Position numbers and translations under genes: made by a program. Below the pieces are notes generated by a model, which was given only the letters and a program-made list of their open reading frames with translations, made no database searches and was not told where the DNA came from. A DNA stretch of 64,000 nucleotides. Origin: Candidatus Methylomirabilota bacterium. Its GTDB lineage: Bacteria > Methylomirabilota > Methylomirabilia > Rokubacteriales > CSP1-6. This document shows, in pieces, positions 7,182-20,127 of the stretch; the stretch's first letter is position 1; each line of letters begins with the position of its first letter. Location: NCBI GenBank assembly GCA_036002485.1, contig DASYTI010000035.1, positions 1 to 64,000 of the forward strand. The letters run 5' to 3'.

Positions 7182-8923
7182 TGGCCGAAGGGTACGACTA
7201 CGACGCGGTGGTGATCGGCTCGGGCTTCGGGGGAGCGGTGACGGGATGCCGTCTCGCCCAAGCCGGCTATGGGGTCGTGATCCTCGAGCGAGGTCACCGG
7301 TGGGGCCCGCGCAAAGGCTATCGCAACGAGGGCAGCCGGACGGGAGATCAGCCGGACGCAGACGTGATGGCCTACCCGCGCACGAGCCGGGATCCGTGGC
7401 TCTGGGACCACGAGCATCCGGAGCGCACGCGGGGCTGGGTGGACTTCCGGCAGTTCCCTCACATGCGCGTCATCCAGGGCGCCGGCGTGGGCGGCGGCTC
7501 GCTCATCTACGCCAATGTGTCCATCGATGCGAACCCGGAATCGTTTGCCCGGGGCTGGCCCGAGCAGATCACCTTCGAGAAGCTCGCGCCCTACTACGCG
7601 CGGGTGGGCGAGATGCTCGAGCTCGGCCGCGTGCCGGAGAGACAGAGGTCCGAGCGCGTCAGCCTGATGCGCGACGCGGCGCACGCCAATGGCTGGGGCG
7701 AGCGCTTTCACGCGGTTGACGTGGCCGTCCGCTTCGATCCGGAGATGACCTATGACTCCTCGCAAAGACCCGATCCCGCGAAGTTCCTGCGCGAGCGGAA
7801 CCGTCATGGCGCCTGGCAGGGCTCGTGCGCCCATCTCGCCAACTGCGACATCGGCTGCGATGTGGGAGCCAAGAACACGCTCGACAAGAACTATCTCTTC
7901 GTGGCCGAGCGAGAGCGCGCCCAGATCAGGCCGCTCCACCTGGTGCGCTCCATCGAAGTATTCGGAGCCGGCTACCGTGTCCACTTCGACCGTATCGTCG
8001 AGGACCGATTCGAGCCGGGCAGCGTGACCGGCCGTCTCGTCATCGTGGCGGCGGGCTCGCTGGGCTCGACCGAGCTTCTCCTCCGCTGCCGGGACCAGTA
8101 CCGCACGCTTCCCCGGCTGAGCCGTGTCCTCGGCCAGGGCTGGAGCAGCAATGGCGACTTCCTCACGCCCGCCCTGCACTTTGGCCGGCCCCTGCTTTAC
8201 CCAGGCCGGGGCATCACGATCGCGGGCTCCATCAACTTCCTCGACGGTCGCCCGGATGATCCCGCCCCGCCCCAGGAAAAGCCCAAGTTCCTGATCGAGG
8301 ACGGGGGCTTCCCCTATCAGGTGGCGGGCGCCCTCATCCGCCACCTCGCCATGAACCGCGGTCATGACGTGCGCCTGCGCCACCGTGTCCTCCACCTCGG
8401 ACTCAAGATCGCCGCCCGTCTCTATGATTTCGTGCACTGGGTGACGCGGCGTTCCGCCTTGCGGTTCCTGCGGCCGTTGTTCGAGCACGCGGATCCGATC
8501 AATCACCTCATGCCGTGGTTCGCGCAGGGTCAGGACAAGGCGGACGGCACCCTGTCCATTCGGCACGGCGAGCTACATCTGGACTGGCCCTACGAGCACT
8601 CGAAGCCCGTGATCGACGCGATCTACGAGACCCACCGCCGACTCGCCCGCTCCACGGGAGGGTGGGTTCTGCCGCCCATCACCTGGACCTGGTTTCACTC
8701 GCTCATCACTCCGCACCCGCTCGGAGGCTGCAACATGGGAACCGATGCGGAGACTGGCGTCGTCGATCACACGGGCGAGGTGTTCGAATACCGCGGGCTC
8801 TACGTCGCCGACGGTGCCATCGTGCCGGAGGCGCTCGGACTCAACCCGTCCAAGACCATCGCCGCCCTCGCCGAGCGCATCGCGGAGCACATCATCCGCG
8901 ACCATCCCCCCGGTCCTCGGTAG
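7178..8923 (+). CDS. GMC family FAD-dependent oxidoreductase (cholesterol-oxidase-like)
   Basis: A 581-residue flavoprotein. YDAVVIGSGFGGAVTGCRLA is the N-terminal FAD-binding glycine motif, GAGVGGGSLIYANV the second dinucleotide signature, and HPLGGCNMG near the C-terminus carries the conserved active-site histidine region typical of cholesterol oxidase-like members, followed by LYVADGAIVPEALGLNPSKTI. It probably oxidises an alcohol or sterol-like substrate using oxygen or another acceptor. No signal peptide is seen. ATG 7178 overlaps the regulator's TGA, and an SGNH hydrolase follows 14 bases downstream, so the three genes likely form one unit. Confidence 0.9.
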   Translation: MMAEGYDYDAVVIGSGFGGAVTGCRLAQAGYGVVILERGHRWGPRKGYRNEGSRTGDQPDADVMAYPRTSRDPWLWDHEHPERTRGWVDFRQFPHMRVIQGAGVGGGSLIYANVSIDANPESFARGWPEQITFEKLAPYYARVGEMLELGRVPERQRSERVSLMRDAAHANGWGERFHAVDVAVRFDPEMTYDSSQRPDPAKFLRERNRHGAWQGSCAHLANCDIGCDVGAKNTLDKNYLFVAERERAQIRPLHLVRSIEVFGAGYRVHFDRIVEDRFEPGSVTGRLVIVAAGSLGSTELLLRCRDQYRTLPRLSRVLGQGWSSNGDFLTPALHFGRPLLYPGRGITIAGSINFLDGRPDDPAPPQEKPKFLIEDGGFPYQVAGALIRHLAMNRGHDVRLRHRVLHLGLKIAARLYDFVHWVTRRSALRFLRPLFEHADPINHLMPWFAQGQDKADGTLSIRHGELHLDWPYEHSKPVIDAIYETHRRLARSTGGWVLPPITWTWFHSLITPHPLGGCNMGTDAETGVVDHTGEVFEYRGLYVADGAIVPEALGLNPSKTIAALAERIAEHIIRDHPPGPR

Positions 8924-11366: not shown

Positions 11367-11580
11367 CCTGGACTATTCGCGAGACAACGTCACCCTGGTC
11401 TACTCAGCCCTCGCCTCAGGGCTACGCCCTTCAGCTCGAACTGCGGATTCATTTTCATCCCTCTCCCCATCGGGGGAGAGGGCCGCACTTCGAGCTGAGC
11501 GGCGTAGCCGCGAGGTGAGGGCTGAGTAGATCAGGGGGCGGCCAGGAAGCGGTACGTGCGTTCGTGAATAATTCGCTAGG
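11367..11580. repeat. Dispersed palindromic repeat, family 1 (locus d)
   Basis: CCTGGACTATTCGCGA opens the element; the CTCAGCCCTCGCCTC module then appears twice in opposite orientation around a CCCTCTCCCC hairpin, and the far end TTCGTGAATAATTCGCTAGG is an imperfect inverse of the start. The TAG stop of the OsmC-like gene lies inside the last bases of the element. Outside it, 11245-11366 shows nothing recognisable. Confidence 0.8.
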
Positions 11581-12088
11581 ACGAAGCGGCATGGGGCGTC
11601 TCTTCCCGTATGGAGAGCGTCTGGTCGCCGGCTTTGAGCGCGGCAGACCAGGTGATCTCTATGGCGTTCTTGACGCTCTGATGGGCGGGGCAGCCCTGAG
11701 GATGCGCGGCCAGGGCCCGCTCGGTCGCCTCCCGCGAGTCCGCCGGCACGGCGAGCTCGTAGTGCACGTGGATGGACTTGATGTGGATGGTTTTGCCGAT
11801 GCCGGCGATCCGGCCTTCGGCGGTGGCGACGAAGGACTCGCGGTCGAAGGCGATCTTGCGCCCTGCCAGGGCGCCGCGCAGGGTGCCGTACATTCACCCG
11901 GCGACGGCGGCCACGATGTGGTCGAGGGTGGAGGCGACGGGCGGTCCCTCGGCGACCCCGTAGTATTCGCGCAGGCCGCCCTGCACGCCATAGACCACGG
12001 GGGCGGGGACGTCGCCGAGATATGCGTGACGATAGCCGTGCCGGTACTCGAGACGCGAGCGCGAGATGTACTCGAATGGCTCAGGCAT
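11576..12088 (-). CDS. OsmC-like peroxidase, predicted selenoprotein (Sec65 at an in-frame TGA)
   Basis: Read straight through one TGA (11894-11896) this is a normal 170-residue OsmC/Ohr-family protein. Before the TGA are a start with GGAGAG ribosome site and the usual N-terminal half ending LDHIVAAVAG; after it come MYGTLRGALAG and the C-terminal half with HPQGCPAHQSV. OsmC proteins reduce hydroperoxides with two cysteines, the first directly after AxxG in this helix and the second in the CP motif. Here the first is TGA (residue 65) and the second is Cys133. A perfect hairpin starts 19 bases after the TGA. Sec-containing OsmC homologues are known in other bacteria. The alternative is a nonsense mutation, but no other damage is visible. 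Confidence 0.82.
11858..11874 (-). promoter_or_regulatory. Candidate bacterial SECIS hairpin of the OsmC-like gene
   Basis: On the coding strand GCGCCCT and AGGGCGC form a perfect 7-bp stem around a GGC loop. The loop starts 26 bases after the TGA, inside the 16-37 base window reported for bacterial SECIS elements, and its first two loop bases are G as the consensus asks. High GC makes chance hairpins common, so this supports but does not prove Sec insertion. Confidence 0.6.
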
Positions 12089-12325
12089 GAGAGCTCTCCG
12101 TGGTGTGGGTGGCCGCCGCGCGGTTGTCGTGTCGCGACGAAGGCAGAGTAGCACGAGCCCGATTCGAGAAACTTCATCCGGTGAGATGCTACGATCCACA
12201 CACCATTCTGGGCCCGGGCGGACAAGTCTGGAGCGCGGACCATGCGTCCAACCGGTGACGAGTCCACCCAACCCCCCGCGCCTGCGCGCCCATCGCCCGA
12301 GCCCGGCAGCCCGAGGAGGTGCGTC
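12089..12325. promoter_or_regulatory. Divergent promoter region of the two predicted selenoprotein genes
   Basis: This 237-base gap separates the starts of the OsmC-like and DUF3179 genes and must hold both promoters. No confident -35/-10 pair or operator palindrome was picked out. The end contains the strong GAGGAGGT ribosome site of the DUF3179 gene. Co-regulation of the pair is inferred from geometry only. Confidence 0.4.
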
Positions 12326-13705
12326 ATGAAAAAGGCCATCGTCATGGTCGTGGGCTTGGCCGTCTTCAGCGGCGGCCCGGTCGGCGGGTACCTGGTCGCT
12401 TTCGCTCCGGCACGCGCCGAGGCTCCGACGCTCGACGTGCTGATGTCCGAGCTGCTGCGCCCGGAGACCGCCCGCCGTGAGCCCGCGCTGCGCGAGATCG
12501 TCCGCCGCGGCGAGCGCCGCGCGATTCCCGGGCTCATCGACGTCCTTCGCTTCGACCTGTTTCTCGATTCCAGCGTGGCGGACGCCCTCGACCGGTTCTC
12601 CGGCCAATCGTTCGGTCACGACTGGGCGCGCTGGGTCGAGTGGCTCGCCGAGCGCGAGGACATCCGCCCACACCCGGGCTATGCGGCGTGGAAGGGCGCG
12701 CTCTTTCAGCTCATCGACCCCGCCTTCGGCGAGTTCCTCTACCCGGGCGTGAAGCATCGGGCGCGGCTGGAGGAGATCCAGTGGGGCGGCGTACGCAAGG
12801 ACGGCATCCCAGCCCTCACGAACCCTCGGCACCTTCCCGCCGCTGCGGCGACCTACCTCGGTTCCGACGAGCTGGTGCTCGGCGTGGTGGTGCGGGGCGA
12901 GGCGCGGGCCTATCCGCTCCGGATCATGGACTGGCACGAGATGGCCAACGACGTGGTCGGCGGGGTGCCCATCAGCATCGCGTACTGAACACTGTGTGGA
13001 TCGGCGATCCACTACGAGACCACCGTGCGTGGTCGCACCTTCGTGTTCGGCTCCTCGGGCTTCCTCTTCCGCAGCAACAAGCTCATGTACGACGAGCAGA
13101 CGAAGAGTCTCTGGCACCACATGCGCGGCGAACCGGTGGTGGGGCCGCTCGCCGACAGCGGGATCCGGTTGGCGCCGCGCCCCGTGGTGACCACCACCTG
13201 GCGCGACTGGGCTCGTGCCCACCCGAAGACGAAGGTCCTCGACATCGACACGGGTCATGTCCGCGACTACACGCCGGGGCGGCCCTACGGCGGGTACTAC
13301 GCGAGCCCCGACACCATGTTCCCGGTCTTTCCCCGGAGTACCGGGCTGGCCACCAAGGACGTCATCTTCGTCCTCCGTCTCGATCCGCACCGCAAGGTTT
13401 ATCCGCTGGCCGTCTTCGACCGCGAACCCGTGATCAACGACGCGGTGGGGGGCACCTCCGTCGTGCTCGTTGGTCGCCGCGCGACGCGGACGGCGCGCGC
13501 ATACGAGCGCGGGGCGCGCACCTTCCGGCTCGGGGGCGGGCCCGACGAGCTGGTCGAGCGGGGGAGTGGCGAGTCCTGGCGCGTGGAGGAGGAGGCGCTG
13601 GTGCATCCCGGGAGCGGGCGGCGGCTGGCGCGCCTGGCTGGGCACAACGCCTTCTGGTTCGGCTGGTTCGCCTTTCACCCGGAGACGGCCGTCTACGGGC
13701 GCTGA
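12326..13705 (+). CDS. DUF3179 domain protein, predicted exported selenoprotein (Sec221 at an in-frame TGA)
   Basis: Read through TGA 12986-12988 this is a 459-residue DUF3179 protein. MKKAIVMVVGLAVFSGG...ARAEA is a signal peptide and GAGGAGGT precedes the ATG. The family hallmark is a stretch like HExxND..GG.P....YCPLCG; here it reads HEMANDVVGGVPISIAY, then the TGA, then TLCGSAIHYE, so the first Cys of the CxxC is TGA and the second is Cys224. The following frame continues without defect through FGSSGFLFRSNKLMYDEQT and SLWHHMRGEPVVGPL to the end. A 7-bp hairpin follows the TGA. The predicted product has a UxxC motif outside the cytoplasm, suggesting a redox role; DUF3179 has no established reaction. 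Confidence 0.82.
12996..13012 (+). promoter_or_regulatory. Candidate bacterial SECIS hairpin of the DUF3179 gene
   Basis: GTGGATC and GATCCAC pair perfectly over 7 bp around a GGC loop, the same loop as in the OsmC-like gene. The loop begins 14 bases after the TGA, slightly nearer than the usual 16-37 base range, which is the weak point of the call. Confidence 0.55.
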
Positions 13706-18053: not shown

Positions 18054-19376
18054 ATGGCCATGCATAGCGGCGACCTGAAAACGCGACTTCTGCGAGTCCT
18101 CGTGGCCGTCATTCTCGCGGTGATCGGCGGGCTGGTCGGTTCCGCCGCGGCGGACGAGACCTGTCAATCCCCCTTCCTGCCCAAGGTCACCGGACAGGAG
18201 GACTACATCTACGTGTGGACCCTCGGCGTCAAGGGCGTGGCCGATGGCAACGACAGCATCGTCACCGTGGACGCCAATCCCAAGTCGGCGAGCTCTGGCA
18301 AGATCATCCACCGGGCGCCCGTGACGGGCCGGCACGAGGCCCATCACGCCGGCTTCACCGACGACCGGCGCTTCCTGTGGGCGGGCGGCCTCGACACGAG
18401 CCAGATCTTCATCTTCGACGTCGGGTCGAACCCCGCCCAGCCCCGGCTCGTGAAGAAGATTTCCACCTTCGTCAAGGACACGGGCGGCCTCGTCGGCCCT
18501 CACACCTTTTACGCGCTCCCCGGGCGCATGCTCATCTCGGCCCTGTCCAATGCCCAGGACAGCTCCGGCCGTACCGGCCTCGCCGAGTACAGCAATGACG
18601 GCAAGTTCATCCGCACCATCTGGATGCCCAAGGAAGCCCCCTACGGCTATGACGTGCGGGTCAACGTCAATCTCAATCGAATGCTGACGTCGTCTTTCAG
18701 CGGCAAGAAGAACTACATGCGGCCGTTCGGCGACCTCGTGAAGGACGCGGAGGCCATGAAGCAGTTCGGGGATTCGGTGATCGTGTGGGACTTCCATGCC
18801 CGGAAGCCGCTCCAGATCCTGCGCGTGCCGGGCGCTCCCCTCGAGCTGCGCTGGGCCCTCCTGCCGAATCATCACTACGCCTTCACCTCGACGGCCCTCA
18901 CGGGCAAGCTGGTGCTCATCCATCAGCAAGAGGACGGGAAGTGGGCGGCCAAGGACATCGCCGATATCGGCGCTACCATTCCCGTCGATATCAGCATCGC
19001 GCCCGACGACAGCAAGGTCTACGTCAACACCTTCATGGACGGCACGCTGCGGGTCTATGACGTGTCGAACCCCTTCGAGGGCAAGCTCATCGAGCAGGTG
19101 AAGCTCGGGGAGATGGCCAACATGGTGTCCTCGTCCTGGGACGGCACGCGCGTCTACGCGACCAACTCGCTCCTCTCGCAATGGGACAAGCCGGGCGACT
19201 ACTGGCTCAAGGGCTATGCGTGGGAAGGCGGCAAGCTGGTCGCGAAGTTCACCACCGACTTCAATCCCGCGGGCCGGGCCCACATCATGAACTTCGGGAG
19301 CAAGGTCTTCGGCCCGAAGGCCGCGCGTCCGGCTCCGAGTGGCGAACGGGTCAGCGCGTATGCCGCGCCCCGCTGA
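18054..19376 (+). CDS. mtoX: SBP56 family protein, probable methanethiol oxidase
   Basis: A 440-residue selenium-binding-protein (SBP56) homologue. An N-terminal signal peptide (TRLLRVLVAVILAVIGG...AAADE) sends it out of the cytoplasm. TCQSPFLPKVTGQEDYIYVW, GRHEAHHAGFTDDRRFLWAG, VGPHTFYALP and GRAHIMNF match the methanethiol oxidase branch, a copper-dependent beta-propeller that turns methanethiol into formaldehyde, H2S and H2O2. The next gene encodes an SCO-type copper chaperone, the same pairing reported for mtoX in methylotrophs. The name comes from selenium binding in animal homologues and does not mean it contains selenocysteine; no in-frame TGA is present. Confidence 0.88.
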   Translation: MAMHSGDLKTRLLRVLVAVILAVIGGLVGSAAADETCQSPFLPKVTGQEDYIYVWTLGVKGVADGNDSIVTVDANPKSASSGKIIHRAPVTGRHEAHHAGFTDDRRFLWAGGLDTSQIFIFDVGSNPAQPRLVKKISTFVKDTGGLVGPHTFYALPGRMLISALSNAQDSSGRTGLAEYSNDGKFIRTIWMPKEAPYGYDVRVNVNLNRMLTSSFSGKKNYMRPFGDLVKDAEAMKQFGDSVIVWDFHARKPLQILRVPGAPLELRWALLPNHHYAFTSTALTGKLVLIHQQEDGKWAAKDIADIGATIPVDISIAPDDSKVYVNTFMDGTLRVYDVSNPFEGKLIEQVKLGEMANMVSSSWDGTRVYATNSLLSQWDKPGDYWLKGYAWEGGKLVAKFTTDFNPAGRAHIMNFGSKVFGPKAARPAPSGERVSAYAAPR

Positions 19377-19410: not shown

Positions 19411-20127
19411 ATGCGAAGAGGTCTGCGCGCCTTCGCTCTGCTGGCCGGGGTCGCCGGTGGACTGCTCGCCACGGCTCCCCTGAGCGCCCACGAAGCCCTG
19501 AGCCTTGAAGACGAGTTCGTCAAGGGCGTCTTCTCGCCGGCCTTCACGCCGCCGGCCGCGGGAAGCTACGAGCTTCCGGCCGTCAAGCGCGTGCCGGGCG
19601 TGGTCCTGAAGGATCTGGCCGGGCGCCCGGTGAGTACCCGCCACGTGACGGCGGGCAAGGTCGCCGTGGTCAGCTTCATCTATACGACCTGTCCGGAGCG
19701 CCTGGGCTGCCCCCTGGCCAGTCTTGCCCTGCAGGAGCTTCAGGCCAAGCTCAAGGACGAGGGCCTGTCGCGGCACGCGATGCTGCTGTCGATCAGCTTC
19801 GATCCCGTTCGCGACACGCCCGGTCAGCTTGCCAAGTACGCGCGGATCTATGGCGCCGATCCCCGGCTGTGGCGCTTCATGACGGCCCCATCGGAGCGCG
19901 CCCTCGATCATGTGCTCGACAGCTACGGCCAGGATCGCGCGGCCGTCTACGACGAGCAGGGCCGGTTCACGGGCCGGTACCGTCACGTGCTCAAGGTGTT
20001 CCTGGTCGATCCCGCCGGGTATATCAGGAATGTCTACAGCGCGGGTTTTCTGGTTCCGGATCTCGTCCTGAACGACATCAAAACCGTGCTCGGCGAGAGC
20101 GCGCCGCGCGAGGTGGTCAGGCGCTAG
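19411..20127 (+). CDS. SCO1/SenC family copper chaperone
   Basis: A 238-residue exported thioredoxin-fold protein with signal peptide ALLAGVAGGLLATAPLSAHE. The copper-binding loop reads TTCPERLGCPLAS, i.e. two cysteines five residues apart rather than the usual three, and the later GRYRHVLKVFLVD supplies the histidine ligand; SISFDPVRDTP is typical of the family. It follows mtoX by 34 bases and probably loads copper into that enzyme, although a role in cytochrome oxidase assembly cannot be excluded. Its TAG overlaps the TAG of the convergent transporter within a CTAG palindrome. Confidence 0.88.
   Translation: MRRGLRAFALLAGVAGGLLATAPLSAHEALSLEDEFVKGVFSPAFTPPAAGSYELPAVKRVPGVVLKDLAGRPVSTRHVTAGKVAVVSFIYTTCPERLGCPLASLALQELQAKLKDEGLSRHAMLLSISFDPVRDTPGQLAKYARIYGADPRLWRFMTAPSERALDHVLDSYGQDRAAVYDEQGRFTGRYRHVLKVFLVDPAGYIRNVYSAGFLVPDLVLNDIKTVLGESAPREVVRR

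Follow-up and report, generated by a model that had tools for sequence, protein, structure and literature searches.

An interrupted DUF3179 gene and its surroundings

The window, a 64,000-nucleotide stretch of a Candidatus Methylomirabilota contig, contains a gene whose reading frame runs on the forward strand from ATG 12326 to a terminal TGA at 13703-13705 and is broken only by the TGA at 12986-12988, as the original prediction had maintained (Table 1). When this codon is read through, the product is a member of the DUF3179 family: in a profile search, PF11376 spans residues 158-454 (E=1.5e-78), with a score of 264.6 bits against a cut-off of 27 and with profile positions 1-292 of 292 covered. 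Zero NCBIfam models matched the read-through protein. A good ribosome-binding site precedes the ATG, and the N-terminus (MKKAIVMVVGLAVFSGG...ARAEA) was judged by eye to resemble a signal peptide. The residues around the internal TGA are Y-TGA-T-L-C-G, such that residues 221-224 would form U-T-L-C, in agreement with the UxxC/T pattern of published selenocysteine (Sec)-containing DUF3179 proteins. Standard annotation would cut this gene in two, which is corrected by reading the TGA as Sec.

Table 1. Positions and properties of features at the DUF3179 locus of the window
Feature	Position	Strand	Remarks
OsmC-like gene, predicted selenoprotein	11576..12088	-	Divergent neighbour of the DUF3179 gene; ATG 12088
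In-frame TGA of the OsmC-like gene (putative Sec)	11894..11896	-	G-U-M-Y-G-T
Ribosome-binding site GAGGAGGT	12313..12320	+	5 nt upstream of the ATG; from sequence
DUF3179 gene, predicted selenoprotein	12326..13705	+	459 residues, Sec at 221
Regions of the DUF3179 protein			Signal-peptide-like N-terminus of ~32 residues; helical region 36-136; DUF3179 domain 158-454
In-frame TGA, inferred Sec221	12986..12988	+	Column otherwise always Cys
Cys224 codon	12995..12997	+	Second Cys position of U-T-L-C
Putative bSECIS hairpin	12996..13012	+	7 bp; apical loop GGC; UGA-to-loop distance 14 nt

The OsmC-like gene is arranged head-to-head with the DUF3179 gene (Pfam OsmC, E=5e-11). Further along the window, a gene of the SBP56 family (selenium-binding protein/methanethiol oxidase; 18054-19376, +) is followed by an SCO1/SenC gene (19411-20127, +). 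A codon-usage scan of the window for further TGA-interrupted genes was insensitive, as it missed both known cases.

The TGA coincides with an invariant cysteine

The TGA had been proposed to replace the first Cys of a CxxC motif, and alignment with Cys-containing homologues places it precisely there: among 67 distinct DUF3179 sequences, the column is occupied by Cys (TGC/TGT) in 46 and by TGA in 21, with zero other codons. The 32 related loci retrieved in a scan of the genome collection come from Methylomirabilota, Chloroflexota, Pseudomonadota, Acidobacteriota, Planctomycetota and others. The homologues covering the column carry TGC or TGT throughout, except for L074 (Methylomirabilota, sharing 66% identity with the window protein and its TGA codon) and L095 (Mariniblastus, Planctomycetota, 42% identical, TGA at the same column). 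TGA was also found at the same codon in L131, which originates from another genome and is 57% identical to the window protein. In a profile search of 95 Methylomirabilota genomes, 18 of them, the window's included, yielded 20 DUF3179 matches that contain a single in-frame TGA, and in all 20 the TGA lies at the Sec column of the window protein. The proposed search for other DUF3179 genes with TGA at this position was thus answered by Methylomirabilota and by a planctomycete. The majority of these 20 matches belong to a second subfamily with the motif W-U-P-L-C-[FWY]-[TS]-G.

In a tree of the 67 sequences, of which 46 have Cys and 21 Sec, a Sec clade (support 100/98) unites the window gene with L131 and with L130/L074, which are the same gene by sequence. 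The well-supported branches of this tree require a minimum of three changes between Sec and Cys, and parsimony gives four. Comparison of the homologues shows the two residues to be equivalent at this column, and an in-frame UGA that falls on an invariant Cys and recurs in several lineages is the strong part of the evidence for Sec.

Several branches of the tree deserve separate description. The second Sec subfamily (L043, L044, L047, L123-L129, L133-L134 and L146-L149) is widespread in Methylomirabilota; L135, which sits on a long branch, carries U-P-L-T instead of U-x-x-C; and the closest neighbours of the planctomycete L095 carry Cys.

Selection across the TGA and the candidate bSECIS hairpin

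Compared with L074, dN/dS is ~0.23 before the TGA and ~0.25 after it, and these near-equal values show that the downstream part is maintained by selection, indicative of its translation. Over codons 223-234, within which the hairpin lies, every synonymous site matches L074 despite an overall dS of 1.1 (binomial p 4.5e-4; 2.4% in a longest-run shuffle).

The perfect GTGGATC-GGC-GATCCAC hairpin described in the original prediction was confirmed downstream of the TGA. Bacterial SECIS (bSECIS) elements have been modelled with an apical loop of 3-9 nt, a stem of 4-16 bp, a G among the first two loop nucleotides and an energy of at most -7.5 kcal/mol, and with a UGA-to-apical-loop distance of 16-37 nt for most elements, to which exceptions exist (PMC13188914). 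The stem and loop of the window hairpin lie within these ranges, as does its energy of -10.5 kcal/mol (30-nt core), and its spacing falls just short of them. Among the 1508 TGA triplets counted over both strands of the window, 2.7% precede a comparably good structure (within reach of the TGA, a perfect stem of 7 bp or more with a G at loop position one or two), and in isolated folding against shuffles the element was weakly more stable over 45 nt (z=-1.1), with z=-2.1 for the 30-nt core. Given this chance level and modest stability, the hairpin on its own constitutes modest evidence.

Comparison among homologues shows that the hairpin is conserved. In L131 it occurs in the same register with six of its seven stem pairs kept, one of them through a compensatory change from A-U to G-C, whereas Cys homologues retain between zero and six of the seven pairs, mostly one to four. 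Members of the second Sec subfamily, together with L095 and L135, carry a hairpin at a constant spacing of 20 nt, with the loop CGTGT in nearly all; five of its seven pairs show double changes, which stem from three divergent rows, a level reached in none of 500 shuffles.

A second predicted selenoprotein gene and the selenocysteine machinery

Full-length relatives of the OsmC-like gene occur in 61 Methylomirabilota genomes, and nearly all contain an in-frame TGA. In the 20 loci inspected, this TGA occupies one column and is followed by a conserved hairpin, GCGCCCT-GG[CT]-AGGGCG, the apical loop of which is of the GG kind seen in the DUF3179 gene. OsmC-like proteins (UxxT) are a known kind of selenoprotein (review table in PMC13188914), and the neighbour resembles the OsmC-related (seleno)protein model NF041052 in possessing an OsmC domain with an in-frame TGA, yet it reaches 22.5 bits against a 95-bit NCBIfam cut-off and has the motif U-M-Y-G-T. 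Searching solved structures with its sequence returned nothing credible. The presence of this apparent selenoprotein gene supports Sec decoding in the window's genome. The idea that the two adjacent genes represent a conserved functional unit found no support, as they lie on separate contigs in TGA-bearing relatives, for example in G102, G067 and G047.

The Sec machinery expected by the original prediction was recovered only in part. The window's own assembly (metagenome-type, 4.45 Mb, 95.7% complete, 253 contigs) was searched for selA, selB and tRNA-Sec; neither selA nor tRNA-Sec was found, and no selB match exceeded the cut-off. It does contain selD, which is itself of the Sec type, with an in-frame TGA in YAACAG-U-ASKMG (about 8303-8305 (-) of L052, equivalent to about 44302-44304 of contig G000:C51) and an 8-bp hairpin, GTCCCGGA-GATC-TCCGGGAC, downstream of it. 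Synthesis of such a SelD itself requires Sec decoding. A further SelD-family match, without TGA, is located on contig C54.

Among 57 genomes from the organism's taxonomic family, 52 contain a SelA profile match, which is full-length in nearly all. In all three congeners having selA, tRNA-Sec adjoins it, and selB does so in the one congener checked by profile. In the window's assembly, contig C193 runs collinear with the region flanking a congener's sel cluster and stops ~1.4 kb short of the cluster, which is therefore most likely to lie in an assembly gap (the blastn map of contigs C84/C193 was relied on, the tblastx map being noise). The missing selA, selB and tRNA-Sec are thus probably explained by the gap beside C193. 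The genomes that carry L074 and L095 each contain both selA and selB, as do the TGA-bearing genomes G046-G048.

Selenocysteine versus other readings of the TGA

The product of the DUF3179 gene is almost certainly a selenoprotein, with Sec specified by UGA 12986-12988; the UxxC protein originally predicted is strongly supported by the Cys/TGA column, selection, the hairpin and the Sec genes. A genome devoid of Sec machinery would argue against such a reading, and on its face the assembly shows this state, but it is outweighed by the Sec-type SelD and the Sec-type OsmC-like gene in the same assembly. The missing insertion genes would also be in keeping with a true nonsense mutation, leaving a decaying pseudogene or a truncated protein. 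This is very improbable, as many species keep TGA at the same column and the frame is otherwise undisrupted, and it is largely refuted by the equal purifying selection on either side of the codon. Even less credence is given to a sequencing or assembly error masking a TGC or TGT codon, which a single locus in a metagenome-type assembly of many contigs might suggest, since L074 and L131 share the TGA codon in separate genomes. For a genome-wide reassignment of TGA to Trp or Gly no support was found, and it is the least probable of these readings: the gene itself terminates at a TGA, where the DUF3179 domain ends, and the in-frame TGAs of the DUF3179, OsmC-like and SelD genes fall at Cys/Sec columns instead of Trp or Gly columns.

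For the selenoprotein, we infer that Sec is actually inserted and that the product is exported. The hairpin at 12996-13012 would act as the bacterial SECIS element directing the reading of the UGA, with decoding presumably supplied by the organism's own SelA/SelB/tRNA-Sec system.

Fold and possible function

The DUF3179 protein comprises two tandem repeats (residues 175-242 and 338-403, 29% identical), of which only the first contains the U-x-x-C motif. In an alignment of the first repeat from 65 sequences, the Sec column and His204-Glu205 are invariant, and the second Cys is nearly so; Thr takes its place in some members, including the TGA-bearing L135 (U-P-L-T), suggesting that only the first position is essential. 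AlphaFold2 models were confident for both the full protein (mean pLDDT 92, pTM 0.88) and the repeat alone (pLDDT 93), and fold searches of solved structures with either model revealed no credible relative, nor did a search of solved structures by sequence. A Rieske-like fold was considered on the basis of weak full-model matches (probability up to 0.8, E about 0.3) and was discarded, as these disappeared with the repeat alone. The C-x-H and C-x-x-H pairs that accompany the Rieske fold were likewise lacking, the motif being U/C-x-x-C, and no repeat-level Rieske match of note was obtained.

For a domain that lacks an assigned function, the repeated exchange of Cys and Sec at one column indicates the active residue. 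Judged by the motif, the invariant residues and an N-terminus of the export type, the protein most likely acts as a selenol/thiol redox enzyme outside the cytoplasm, a role to which we give about even chances. Sec221 and Cys224 would then form the redox motif of the first repeat in a product predicted to be exported, with Sec221 attacking, Cys224 resolving and His204-Glu205 taking part in the redox chemistry. Somewhat more tentatively, DUF3179 in general may be an extracytoplasmic redox enzyme with a fold unlike solved structures, the catalytic residue of which is marked by independent Cys/Sec exchanges (in the window clade, the planctomycete, the W-U-PLC clade and the U-PLT member). The main functional rival, in which the protein is still a selenoprotein and U-x-x-C is a metal-binding site instead of a redox catalyst, appears less likely: His204-Glu205 and the CxxC-like pair could serve as ligands, and the weak Rieske-ferredoxin similarity of the full model points in the same direction, but Thr at the second Cys position, also in a TGA-bearing member, and the loss of that similarity at the level of the repeat argue against it.

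Relationship to published DUF3179 selenoproteins

The assumption in the original prediction that no DUF3179 selenoprotein family had been published proved wrong, as two reviews include DUF3179 (pfam11376, UxxC/T) in their lists of bacterial selenoproteins (PMC9312934, PMC13188914). Novelty at the level of the family is thus not upheld, and the window gene is a further member of a known selenoprotein family. The paper by Zhang & Gladyshev of 2007 is said to concern the Olavius algarvensis deltaproteobacterial symbiont and to be the source of Sec-DUF3179. Both reviews cite that paper for the family, and the listing in one of them was traced to it. MBW1804167.1 and MDJ0986319.1 serve as reference proteins of the published UxxC/T form. 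No report tying DUF3179 to Methylomirabilota or Rokubacteria was found in the literature searched.

As judged by domain and motif, the window protein shares with published Sec-DUF3179 the Pfam domain and Sec within UxxC, and differs in its Methylomirabilota host, its Y-U-TLCG subfamily and an extra helical N-terminal region. Cys-containing orthologues from Chloroflexota, Pseudomonadota, Acidobacteriota and others are 36-56% identical to it, with C-x-x-C at the same columns, but carry Cys in place of Sec, and most of them lack a hairpin in the same register. This little-studied selenoprotein family is now extended to Methylomirabilota and a planctomycete. A very large selenoproteome has recently been ascribed to the phylum Methylomirabilota, one genome of which has 63 predicted selenoprotein genes (PMC13188914).
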